28,342 nt of DNA from a virus. The translations under genes were made by a program, and so were the position numbers. Shown here piece by piece: positions 2,879 through 5,346 of the stretch (its first letter is position 1; each line of letters opens with the position of its first letter). The stretch spans positions 1 through 28,342 of the IMG/VR virus record IMGVR_UViG_3300021197_000911; one strand, given 5' to 3'. The notes under the pieces were generated by a model that saw nothing but the letters and a program-made list of their open reading frames with translations, ran no database searches and was not told the origin of the DNA.

Positions 2879-3364
2879 TTACTTCTCCTGTTCAACCCAT
2901 TTATATAATCTTCTTTTACATATTGACCACATATGACCTTCTCTGCAATTGTATTTCTTTGCTAAGTCTCTTACGCATCCGTGATAGACATTAGAATCGT
3001 AGTCATTACGAATTGCTCTAATTTCATCTGGCGTAAAGCGACAATTATCACCAGTTTGTTTTGCTTGACGCATTACATCTGTCATATTTTTTAGAACAAT
3101 ATGCTCTGGATTAACACATTTGATATTGCCACACGACCTAGTTAACTTTGCTTTATCACTTTTACCAGGAACAGTATTGCCTAGAAGTTCCCATATAGCA
3201 GAATGAGTCGTTCTCATAGATTGTGTTTGTGCCCATCTGACCATTGGATACCCTTGACGATGCCAAGGGCCGTTCCAAATGTGACAATCGCCTTCTTCTG
3301 TTGTGCGTTCTTTTATTCTTTCGAGCGTCAGAAATTTAATTTTTGGACCTGATTTATTTTTCAT
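2879..3364 (-). CDS. HNH endonuclease with C-terminal helix-turn-helix
   Basis: The 161-residue protein has the His-Me finger layout of the HNH_3-type phage nucleases. GDCHIWNGPWHRQGYPMVRW spans 25-44, H54 in the TTHSAIWELLG segment is the likely catalytic histidine, and the zinc-type knuckle C78-x4-C83-V-N-P-E-H88 follows. The C-terminal part (about 111-156, TPDEIRAIRNDYDSN ... DLAKKYNCREGHMWSICKRRLYKW) reads as a helix-turn-helix DNA-binding domain, the usual arrangement in free-standing homing endonucleases. A good ribosome binding site (AGGAG, 6 nt) supports the start at 3364. It could be a homing enzyme that moved into a non-essential spacer, or a packaging-linked HNH nuclease; it is far from the terminase, which favours the first. 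Confidence 0.85.
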   Translation of the reverse strand: MKNKSGPKIKFLTLERIKERTTEEGDCHIWNGPWHRQGYPMVRWAQTQSMRTTHSAIWELLGNTVPGKSDKAKLTRSCGNIKCVNPEHIVLKNMTDVMRQAKQTGDNCRFTPDEIRAIRNDYDSNVYHGCVRDLAKKYNCREGHMWSICKRRLYKWVEQEK

Positions 3365-3728: not shown

Positions 3729-3953
3729 TCATTTCCTCTTATTATCTCTAGCAATGAGTTCATTGATTCTATCAATCTCATATTCTGCTGTAAGAATTTT
3801 AGCACTATCTTTCATTTCTTTTGCTTGTGCTAATCTATCTGTATGAATCTTCAATAACGGAGCAAATTGACCAGTATACTTCTTAGTCTTTTTCTCTGTC
3901 TTTTTAGGTTCATCTTCTGTTGTTATTTCTTTTATTTCTTTCCATTTCGCCAT
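3729..3953 (-). CDS. Lysine-rich hypothetical protein (74 aa)
   Basis: First gene of the 3953-2746 unit. The N-terminal half is a charged, Lys/Glu-rich, probably disordered segment (TEDEPKKTEKKTKKYTG, 12-28). The C-terminal half is predicted helical and coiled-coil-like (LLKIHTDRLAQAKEMKDSAK ... DRINELIARDN). The start has AGGAG 6 nt upstream of the ATG. A sigma70-type promoter at 4000-4028 places the mRNA start about 40 nt above the gene. The function is unknown. The basic character would fit nucleic acid or protein contact, but no family is recognised. Confidence 0.8.
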   Translation of the reverse strand: MAKWKEIKEITTEDEPKKTEKKTKKYTGQFAPLLKIHTDRLAQAKEMKDSAKILTAEYEIDRINELIARDNKRK

Positions 3954-3999
3954 TATTTTCTCCTAATTTTAATGATAACAATTTATTACCATATCTCTT

Positions 4000-4028
4000 A
4001 CTATAACATAATTGACTCTGAAAGTCAA
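4000..4028 (-). promoter_or_regulatory. Sigma70-type promoter (TTGACT-17-TATAGT) for the 3953-2746 unit
   Basis: On the minus strand TTGACT (4028-4023) and TATAGT (4005-4000) are separated by 17 nt. The -35 box is one arm of the inverted repeat TTGACT / AGTCAA (4012-4028), which could be an operator. The predicted start is near 3993. Confidence 0.7.
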
Positions 4029-4033
4029 CTAAA

Positions 4034-4041
4034 GTATTTAT
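4034..4041 (-). promoter_or_regulatory. T4-late-like promoter motif ATAAATAC, copy 2
   Basis: The minus strand reads AATAGATAAATACTTT, sharing AGATAAATAC with copy 1. It lies directly upstream of the sigma70-type promoter of the same unit, so the unit could be read both early and late. Confidence 0.4.
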
Positions 4042-4099
4042 CTATTTCTATTAGACGTAATTATGCTTAAATTATACGATAATATTAAAACACTCATAT

Positions 4100-4691
4100 C
4101 TGATGCCAAAGGCATCTAAAACGATTTGTTTTAATTCACTCGCTTTGCTCGTTCAATAAAGCCAAATCATTTTATTGTTTCCACAAACAAATAATTAAAC
4201 CACAAGTAAATGATAATTCATTTAATAATTATAATCCACTTGAAGATGAGCCCATAGTCACGCCTACTACGGCGCAACTAAAAGATTACTTGAAGCAATC
4301 GTCCATTACTTAATCAACTCAACTCTTACGAGAAAGGCAGGTTTTGCTGTCTCCTTTTACAAGCGTGTCTGTTTAACGCAAAGCATCACTACCGATTAAG
4401 CAGTACTTGTGACACTTTTGTTGAATACTCTTTCGAGCGTGTTTTTCAACTCACTTAGTTAATATTAGTTTAATATTAGCCTATTCACGTATTTCTACGC
4501 TACAACCATTAAGACAAGTGAAAAGCAGTACCACATAGGGGGTTCTTTTAAGGCATCCTGCGATTAACAGGGTAGACACTTGAATTTAGATAATAAGCAA
4601 TCCAGATTACCCTACGACATCACTAGGGATTCATCAACACTATTATAATCGGCGTGTCAACCTTAATCTTATTTGTAGGGTTCTGTGGGGG
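4100..4691 (-). ncRNA. Candidate large structured RNA in a gene-free 600-nt region
   Basis: No frame of useful length exists on either strand from about 4080 to 4710. G+C is about 39% over 4251-4670 but about 21% over 3961-4090, a classic sign of structured RNA in AT-rich genomes. Inverted repeats are dense. They include 4102-4107/4111-4116 (GATGCC), 4123-4128/4163-4168, 4207-4213/4218-4224, 4255-4264/4271-4280 with symmetric CA/CA internal loop, 4333-4340/4347-4357 with a bulge, 4363-4366/4376-4379, 4420-4425/4445-4450 enclosing CTC-GAG, 4488-4491/4496-4499, and the long-range pairs 4515-4520/4577-4582 and 4610-4615/4675-4680. Two loops read GAAA only on the minus strand (4431-4434 and 4492-4495), which favours minus-strand transcription. 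Size and setting recall the GOLLD and ROOL giant phage RNAs; no specific match is claimed. Ends and strand are inferred. Confidence 0.5.
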
Positions 4692-4710
4692 GAATTGTAT
4701 TAGATTTGTA

Positions 4711-4845
4711 TTAGTGTTTTTGTTTTCTACTAGGTCGTCTTCTTTTGCCATTTACAAGTGGTCTACTATCACGTTTCTTAGGTTTAACTTTAAGAAGTTC
4801 GTCTGCCATTTGCTTTAGTTGATTTGTTGTATATTTTGTATTCAT
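4711..4845 (-). CDS. Small basic protein (44 aa), probably from a leaderless mRNA
   Basis: The frame starts MNTKYTTNQLKQMADELLKV (amphipathic helix) and ends in a strongly basic tail with KPKKRDSRP, GKRRRPSRKQKH. The basic tail suggests RNA or DNA binding. There is no convincing ribosome binding site. Instead, the promoter at 4852-4880 has its -10 box ending 6 nt before the ATG, so the predicted mRNA begins at or very near the A of the start codon. It lies between the bidirectional terminator (4912-4939) and the large candidate RNA, so the same transcript may run on into that RNA. The family is unknown. Confidence 0.6.
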   Translation of the reverse strand: MNTKYTTNQLKQMADELLKVKPKKRDSRPLVNGKRRRPSRKQKH

Positions 4846-4851
4846 CTTTAT

Positions 4852-4880
4852 ATACTAACATACTCTAAAAGAGATGTCAA
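4852..4880 (-). promoter_or_regulatory. Sigma70-type promoter (TTGACA-17-TAGTAT)
   Basis: Consensus TTGACA (minus strand, 4880-4875) and TAGTAT (4857-4852) are 17 nt apart. It drives the 44-codon gene at 4845 and possibly the structured RNA region downstream. Confidence 0.8.
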
Positions 4881-4911
4881 GCATTTTATAGTTTTATTTA
4901 GCATATTAATG

Positions 4912-4939
4912 AAAAAACCCCTCAATTAAGAGGGGTTTT
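4912..4939. terminator. Bidirectional terminator at the end of the structural unit
   Basis: CCCCTC (4918-4923) pairs with GAGGGG (4930-4935) around AATTAA, with flanking A6 and T4 runs. The minus-strand reading ends in TTTTTT, the stronger direction, and would stop transcripts that have crossed the tail genes. Its core differs by one loop base from the terminator at 2680-2706. Confidence 0.92.
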
Positions 4940-5038
4940 GAGTGTTTATTCGAGTAATGGCAGTAACTAAAATAAACAATGTCAAGGATTACACTAAAAT
5001 CCTAGGAGATAACAAAAGTAATACAAGGCTTTTGTTAT
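4912..5038 (-). ncRNA. Candidate small RNA between late-like motif and terminator
   Basis: Immediately below the ATAAATAC motif at 5043-5050, the minus strand has a perfect 10-bp hairpin (5029-5038 with 5009-5018), a 6-bp hairpin (AGGATT/AATCCT, 4985-5003) and the strong terminator. A transcript starting near 5037 would be about 125 nt long and contains no usable reading frame. It might instead be only the 3' untranslated region of the tail unit; the exact fit of motif, hairpin and terminator is why I list it. Confidence 0.4.
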
Positions 5039-5042
5039 AATA

Positions 5043-5050
5043 GTATTTAT
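5043..5050 (-). promoter_or_regulatory. T4-late-like promoter motif TATAAATAC, copy 3
   Basis: The minus strand reads GTATAAATACTATTATAAC, containing the full TATAAATA core of T4-type late promoters and the following CTATT often seen in T4. It overlaps the stop codon of the gene at 5047-5346. Confidence 0.5.
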
Positions 5051-5346
5051 ACTTTTGCGAAAGCGACTGCTTTCATTTTCTTTGCAATTGACTCTGTGTC
5101 TTCTGCAACTTCTGAATCATAGATTTGAATTTCCCAACAATCTTTACGAATCATAATATCACAGTCACAATCTATTTTATCTAAACTAGGATTATTTGTT
5201 AAAATTAATCCTTTAGTTCTAGCAGGCATACTCAGTCTACGTGTTGCTCTCGCATCTTTTATTCTCATAAACTTTTTAATATCGAGTACTTTATACAATT
5301 GATTTTCCAGCATTTGATTTATTCTGTATTCATTATTATAACTCAT
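5047..5346 (-). CDS. Hypothetical protein (99 aa), last gene of the tail unit
   Basis: I do not recognise this protein. The ATG at 5346 is preferred; a TTG at 5358 would add four residues. Neither has a strong ribosome binding site, so coupling to the upstream 1715-residue gene (22 nt away) is likely. The product is basic in its first half (IKKFMRIKDARATRRLSMPA) and has a short Cys-rich strand (DKIDCDCDIMIRKDCWEIQIYD), then an acidic stretch and a helical end (SIAKKMKAVAFAKV). Its place after a large fiber-like gene would suit a fiber assembly chaperone, but there is no direct evidence. Confidence 0.7.
   Translation of the reverse strand: MSYNNEYRINQMLENQLYKVLDIKKFMRIKDARATRRLSMPARTKGLILTNNPSLDKIDCDCDIMIRKDCWEIQIYDSEVAEDTESIAKKMKAVAFAKV

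Follow-up and report, generated by a model that had tools for sequence, protein, structure and literature searches.

We find that a small aquatic phage carries, between two of its genes, a conserved structured RNA that encodes no protein, on the minus strand at about 4711-4102 of the window (the whole stretch of DNA analysed, 28,342 nt, which is positions 1 to 28,342 of IMG/VR record IMGVR_UViG_3300021197_000911). Our preferred reading, which we hold at a probability of about two in three, is that this segment encodes a large noncoding RNA of ~480-620 nt that folds independently and acts in trans, and that phages and mobile elements carry as a cassette. The part of this RNA that is already catalogued is a 141-nt end piece only (Weinberg et al. 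2010). Bacteria have few known large structured RNAs, and what the phage-borne GOLLD and ROOL RNAs do is open; the family described here adds a structurally defined case, unrelated to either and with modular 3′ parts.

A structured RNA on the minus strand

4102..4711, minus strand: large structured RNA, with homologues at 71-86% identity; the core shared by relatives is at about 4687-4237

A preliminary description, made from the letters of the DNA, had marked 4100-4691 as gene-free and densely paired. The true unit is longer, from about 4711 to 4102, and perhaps starts from a promoter at 4880-4852. No ORF of more than 42 aa lies wholly within 4100-4711, and the contrast in G+C that had been noted is there (20.8% at 3961-4090 vs 38.8% at 4251-4670). 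The dense pairing was also recovered: the fold of 4100-4700 is more stable than all 20 dinucleotide shuffles, at -154 kcal/mol (z -3.5) for the minus strand and -129 kcal/mol (z -2.7) for the plus strand, so that the fold by itself speaks for the minus strand. GU pairs, which reading the other strand would turn into AC mismatches, are frequent in the minus-strand reading (18 UG and 17 GU in helix P2, for example), and this makes the minus strand the sense strand. Both GAAA hairpins that the description had read on that strand are present (CGTA-GAAA-TACG at 4487-4500 and CTC-GAAA-GAG at 4428-4437); in two relatives (L002 and L004) the first stem has become CATA/TATG, a compensatory change, and the second loop GTAA, which is still a GNRA loop.

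Relatives in phages and bacterial chromosomes

The HNH protein encoded at 2879-3364 led us to a related viral contig (L002), in which the RNA region has 86% DNA identity to the window. An exact pattern from a stretch conserved between the two (AAAAGGAGACAGCAAAACCTG) retrieved 11 viral contigs, all of which align to the RNA, most of them with 70-86% identity over the longer alignments, and a shorter pattern plus ACTACCCN{4,12}GGATGCCTTAAA gave more than 60 phage loci. No conserved reading frame was seen across the 60+ loci. BLAST searches of INPHARED phages with variants of the RNA, and of PLSDB plasmids with one variant, returned nothing usable; pattern matches in genome contigs L014, L015, L017-L022 and L024, which had no match to covariance model R1 of the 5′ domain (below), were taken as chance.

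Searching with R1 revealed 18 chromosomal copies in 16 of ~790 sampled genomes from two proteobacterial orders (5/399 genomes in one order and 11/391 in the other); a phylum-wide sample gave 4 positive genomes among 398, all previously found. The flanks of these copies are often of lower G+C than the surrounding chromosome. Within the fetched flank, DUF6641 was found for 13 of the 18 copies and a short tyrosine recombinase for 12, with a serine resolvase replacing the tyrosine recombinase at one copy. Relatives of the RNA are carried by many unrelated phages and by mobile elements integrated in marine and freshwater bacteria. The integrated elements L096-L107 and L108-L110 combine DUF6641, DUF6626 or DUF6876 with a tyrosine recombinase of 190-221 aa and the RNA; our literature search found no mention of these three DUF families.

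Two different copies of the RNA (L089 and L095) occur in one cultured genome, that of Marivivens donghaensis (G004, which is also the genome of L025); a tyrosine recombinase adjoins one of them and a serine resolvase the other. Such occurrence in cultured bacteria makes expression, structure and knock-out directly testable.

A 5′ domain with a three-way junction and a pseudoknot

4504..4664, minus strand: 5′ domain, covered by covariance model R1; homologous to Rfam Polynucleobacter-1
4659-4654 with 4640-4635, minus strand: helix P2, 98.7% paired, double changes in 5/6 pairs
4610..4628, minus strand: hairpin P3, CCCUA/UAGGG, 92% paired, double changes in 4/5 pairs
4515..4582, minus strand: three-way junction, with P5 (4582-4577 with 4520-4515) around P5a and P5b
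4571-4557 and 4549-4521, minus strand: P5a and P5b, inside P5 of the three-way junction
4592..4673, minus strand: pseudoknot PK1, AAUAAG (4673-4668) with CUUAUU (4597-4592) in the P4 hairpin loop

The 5′ domain is common to all loci that match R1; the window, which belongs to the R1 seed, itself scores 146 bits (E 1e-30). The P4 stem and the P9 pairing align too poorly to be scored. In our alignment of 25 sequences over 26 proposed pairs of the 5′ domain, 96.1% of cells are paired, against 36-54% when the partners are slid, and both sides have changed in 19 of the 26 pairs, including all six of P5. The covariation score is 0.63; shuffles reach 0.20 and slides no more than 0.11.

PK1 covaries across relatives (UAUAGC/GCUAUA and AACUGAC/GUCAGUU, for example). 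Both this pseudoknot and PK2 (below) were tested by comparing cognate with non-cognate strands, independently of any strand-to-strand alignment, by permutations that remove relatedness only in part, though compensating changes recur in distant clades. For PK1, among 52 distinct sequences, the cognate mean was 14.6 vs 12.5 for non-cognate strands, and none of 20000 permutations was as high; the contrast is the smaller because competing pairings fall inside its search window.

The preliminary description had suggested a switch, or a pseudoknot, formed by mutually exclusive pairings here. An exclusive pairing ACCCUAC/GUAGGGU can indeed be drawn, yet it is conserved among the closest relatives only, and the AACCCU-AGGGU alternative is absent from L007, L010, L043 and others; the GUAGGGU strand is used by the P3 hairpin, with its double changes in four of five pairs. 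The relatives do not support the switch.

A modular 3′ domain closed by a second pseudoknot

4487..4500, minus strand: P6, GAAA-capped hairpin, stem G-C changed to A-U with the loop kept; missing in some relatives
4420..4450, minus strand: P7 (99.4% paired) with P7a (4437-4428, GAAA/GUAA loop)
4382..4416, minus strand: P8, long hairpin, 88.9% paired, double changes in each of its 10 pairs
4309..4400, minus strand: pseudoknot PK2, CUUAAUC (4400-4394, P8 loop) with GAUUAAG (4315-4309)
4333..4358, minus strand: P10 and its loop, the most conserved core (AAAAGGAGACAGCAAAACCUGCCUUU)
4332-4323, minus strand: P11, 95.5% paired
4300-4284 and 4275-4260, minus strand: hairpins P12 and P13, read by eye
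4102..4116, minus strand: hairpin GAUGCC-UUU-GGCAUC, possible 3′ end

Across 33 aligned sequences the 3′ domain has a covariation score of 0.63, compared with at most 0.15 in slides. PK2 had to be tested free of alignment, as MAFFT misregisters P10 and PK2 between types (PK2 is 57% paired when aligned): among 31 distinct sequences the cognate helix score was 17.7 vs 10.9 for non-cognate strands, with none of 20000 permutations as high. The P10 loop, GCAAAACCUGC, is nearly invariant and its stem covaries (AAGG/CCUU, UCGG/CCGA, UGGG/CCCA, AGAG/CUCU); the conservation of the core is in part by construction, as AAAAGGAGACAGCAAAACCUGCCUUU served as a search pattern. At the possible 3′ end, L004 carries AGGUC/GACCU at the position of the hairpin; no canonical U tract lies 3′ of the hairpin at 4102..4116.

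The window has the commonest 3′ domain behind the 5′ domain, type A (GGAGACAGCAAAACCUGCC), of which the second bacterial order has a close form (GAUAGCAAAACCUGCUCU). Two further 3′ domains, from other phages and read by eye, stand behind the same 5′ domain and have conserved motifs of their own: GGGUAAGGNACAGAGCCC in L033, L051 and L067, and GAGACAUAGACAAUCC in L036, L062 and L072.

Covariation across homologues, which the preliminary description had proposed as a check, is thus strong in the helices and in both pseudoknots, and the comparative evidence bears out what it had suggested about the size of the RNA, its place in a phage, its dense folding and its sense on the minus strand. A decayed protein gene or a chance fold could account for a weak fold signal on both strands, but is refuted by this covariation and is further opposed by the lack of a conserved frame across more than 60 loci; we give it practically no credence.

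Polynucleobacter-1 as the 5′ third of the RNA family

Scanning the window with Rfam, as had also been proposed, gave no family at threshold, and a permissive scan of 3900-5100 gave chance-like matches only. The Polynucleobacter-1 model (RF01718, gathering cut-off 37 bits) has no match in the window at E 10 or better. However, the view that the region matches nothing known has to be revised, as its 5′ domain is homologous to Polynucleobacter-1. Three relatives (L027, L029, L030) score 25-27 bits with RF01718 and a fourth (L031) 73 bits, at the homologous place; L031 has a type A 3′ domain together with this match, and just 27.5 bits with R1. In genome G044 (C1:649525-649690) both models match the same place, R1 with 72.8 bits and RF01718 with 25.8 bits. 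It is these intermediates, L031 and G044, that establish the homology of the window's 5′ domain to RF01718.

The reverse search, with RF01718 in 399 genomes of one order, gave three over-cutoff copies (L108-L110), all adjoining DUF6641. Behind the RF01718 motif these have, by eye, the same 3′ domain, with the core as GGAGAUCGCGAAACCGCCC or GGAGACAGCGAAACCGCCC, PK2 (partners CCACUUAU/AUAAGUGG and GCACUUCGG/CCGAAGUGC) and the closing motifs. The presence of the same 3′ domain behind genuine RF01718 copies means that Polynucleobacter-1 makes up the 5′ third of the family. The two are alike in their homologous 5′ domain, their shared 3′ domain and their DUF6641 neighbour; they differ in that the Rfam model is of 141 nt, about one third of the RNA, and that the RNA described here looks free-standing and phage-borne. 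A 16-year-old motif is thereby redefined as one end of an RNA that has three to four times its length. The 2010 survey drew Polynucleobacter-1 from Burkholderiales and from fresh water and estuary, and has a y/y/? table entry for it, of which we take a 'y' to denote cis-regulation (PMC2864571); we found no later literature that names RF01718.

Comparison with GOLLD and ROOL

GOLLD, which is known from lakes and the sea, is an ornate RNA of large size that phages and prophages carry; it has pseudoknots and both a conserved and a variable part (PMC12286853). The resemblance to GOLLD and ROOL proposed in the preliminary description holds in kind and not in kinship. Like GOLLD, the present RNA is large, pseudoknotted and phage-borne, with a constant and a variable part; unlike GOLLD, which is often near tRNA islands, it is not near tRNAs (ARAGORN detected none in any viral locus scanned), and it is the 5′ part that is constant. 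ROOL is comparable to it in size (574 model positions), is likewise carried by phages and prophages and also has multiple pseudoknots; what sets the present RNA apart is its distance from tRNAs and the absence of a model match. The best stray matches of the GOLLD model (RF02032) were of 7-9 bits, against a cut-off of 150, and lay away from the RNA. The ROOL model (RF03087) had no match at E 10 or better, though the control genomes gave none either, and Rfam-wide scans yielded no ROOL match. Our best reading is that the RNA would work like GOLLD and ROOL while being unrelated to them in sequence.

Genomic setting and possible function

4852..4880, minus strand: sigma70-like promoter, TTGACA-17-TAGTAT with TG before the -10, consensus 10/12
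4914..4939, both strands: intrinsic-terminator-like hairpin, preceding the promoter-like site
4711..4845, minus strand: 44-aa basic ORF between promoter and RNA, in the present phage and L002/L004 only

The RNA-bearing transcript probably starts at the promoter-like site, and the terminator-like hairpin, which L002 keeps with a different stem and loop, may isolate the unit from the upstream gene. Sequence alignment places the beginning of the homology to L008 and L009 directly after the 44-aa ORF. The DNA of this ORF is 100% identical in L002, with more divergent stretches adjoining it, which could reflect either recent exchange or strong constraint.

Sigma70-like promoters lie upstream of the RNA in 16 of 56 loci (2.3 expected). 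An [N]ATAAATA or CTAAATA element, a motif defined post hoc after the sequences were inspected, lies upstream in 31 of 62 loci vs 5.7 expected, and at 15 of 16 chromosomal copies vs ~0.7 expected. It resembles the T4 late promoter, TATAAATA.

The gap between the genes flanking the RNA measures 507-1242 nt in 36 phage loci. Neighbours differ between groups, and the most widely shared is an HNH endonuclease, found at 9 loci either up- or downstream. Simple ORF calling in 37 phage loci put the upstream neighbour on the opposite strand at six and the downstream neighbour at six; the downstream gene is thus co-oriented in 31/37, a counterpoint to the trans reading since it would allow co-transcription and a cis role. 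The main rival reading takes the RNA for a long leader that regulates the following gene in cis, in keeping with the marking of Polynucleobacter-1 as probably cis-regulatory in the 2010 survey (PMC2864571). We consider it unlikely, because the downstream family changes by locus (unknown proteins of 74-98 aa, one protein of 684 aa, one of 257 aa, DUF6626 and others), because of the six opposite-strand cases and because, within the window, the following gene is equipped with a separate promoter-like site (4028-4000). Covariation, the lack of a tie to any particular downstream gene and the occurrence in phages and mobile elements together point to a trans-acting large RNA.

In this trans-acting reading, the minus-strand RNA would be made, as a separate transcript, within the phage programme and probably late. 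Its shared core is the 5′ domain, with PK1 and the three-way junction, joined in the commonest type to a 3′ domain closed by PK2 around the nearly invariant GCAAAACCUGC loop. Alone or with protein, it might form a structured scaffold or particle while the phage or element reproduces, a role also proposed for GOLLD and ROOL, and the whole RNA would pass as one cassette between phages and integrative elements.

The T4-late-like elements upstream of chromosomal copies, and the occurrence of the RNA both in phages and in recombinase-bearing integrated elements, could alternatively indicate a pRNA-like packaging or inter-element RNA of phages and their satellites, acting in DNA packaging or helper exploitation. 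This we regard as rather improbable: the RNA has no constant link to a terminase gene, its size is far over that of the phi29 pRNA, and the satellite status of the chromosomal elements is an assumption. A tentative and somewhat doubtful reading is that the RNA is a widespread machine of phages and of integrated elements with DUF6641 and a short tyrosine recombinase, made from T4-type late promoters only upon helper infection; as a phage-satellite RNA it would form a particle, or would control packaging or the expression of late genes.

The HNH relatives close to the RNA at the nine phage loci, and GNRA loops and pseudoknots that look tertiary, might suggest a catalytic or homing-type element, an intron-like ribozyme with a nearby endonuclease. 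This is very unlikely, since no Rfam intron or ribozyme model matches at threshold, the RNA lies between complete genes and not within one, and the position of the HNH gene shifts relative to it. Group I and group II introns, tmRNA and RNase P gave no Rfam or ARAGORN match at threshold; a plastid atpF intron line in the permissive scan (25 bits vs a cut-off of 52.5, E 0.8) was chance-like.

The host phage

The two ends of the record (1 and 28342) are contiguous in L002, where one 599-base alignment spans the joint, so the 28,342-bp record probably represents the whole of a circularly permuted genome. Its head and tail genes are lambda-like; among the phage proteins scanned, none was recognised as belonging to replication or lysis or as an integrase. 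A TET-associated glycosyltransferase-like protein (Pfam TAGT) is encoded at 1808-2656 on the plus strand, which suggests that this very small phage may have modified DNA bases.
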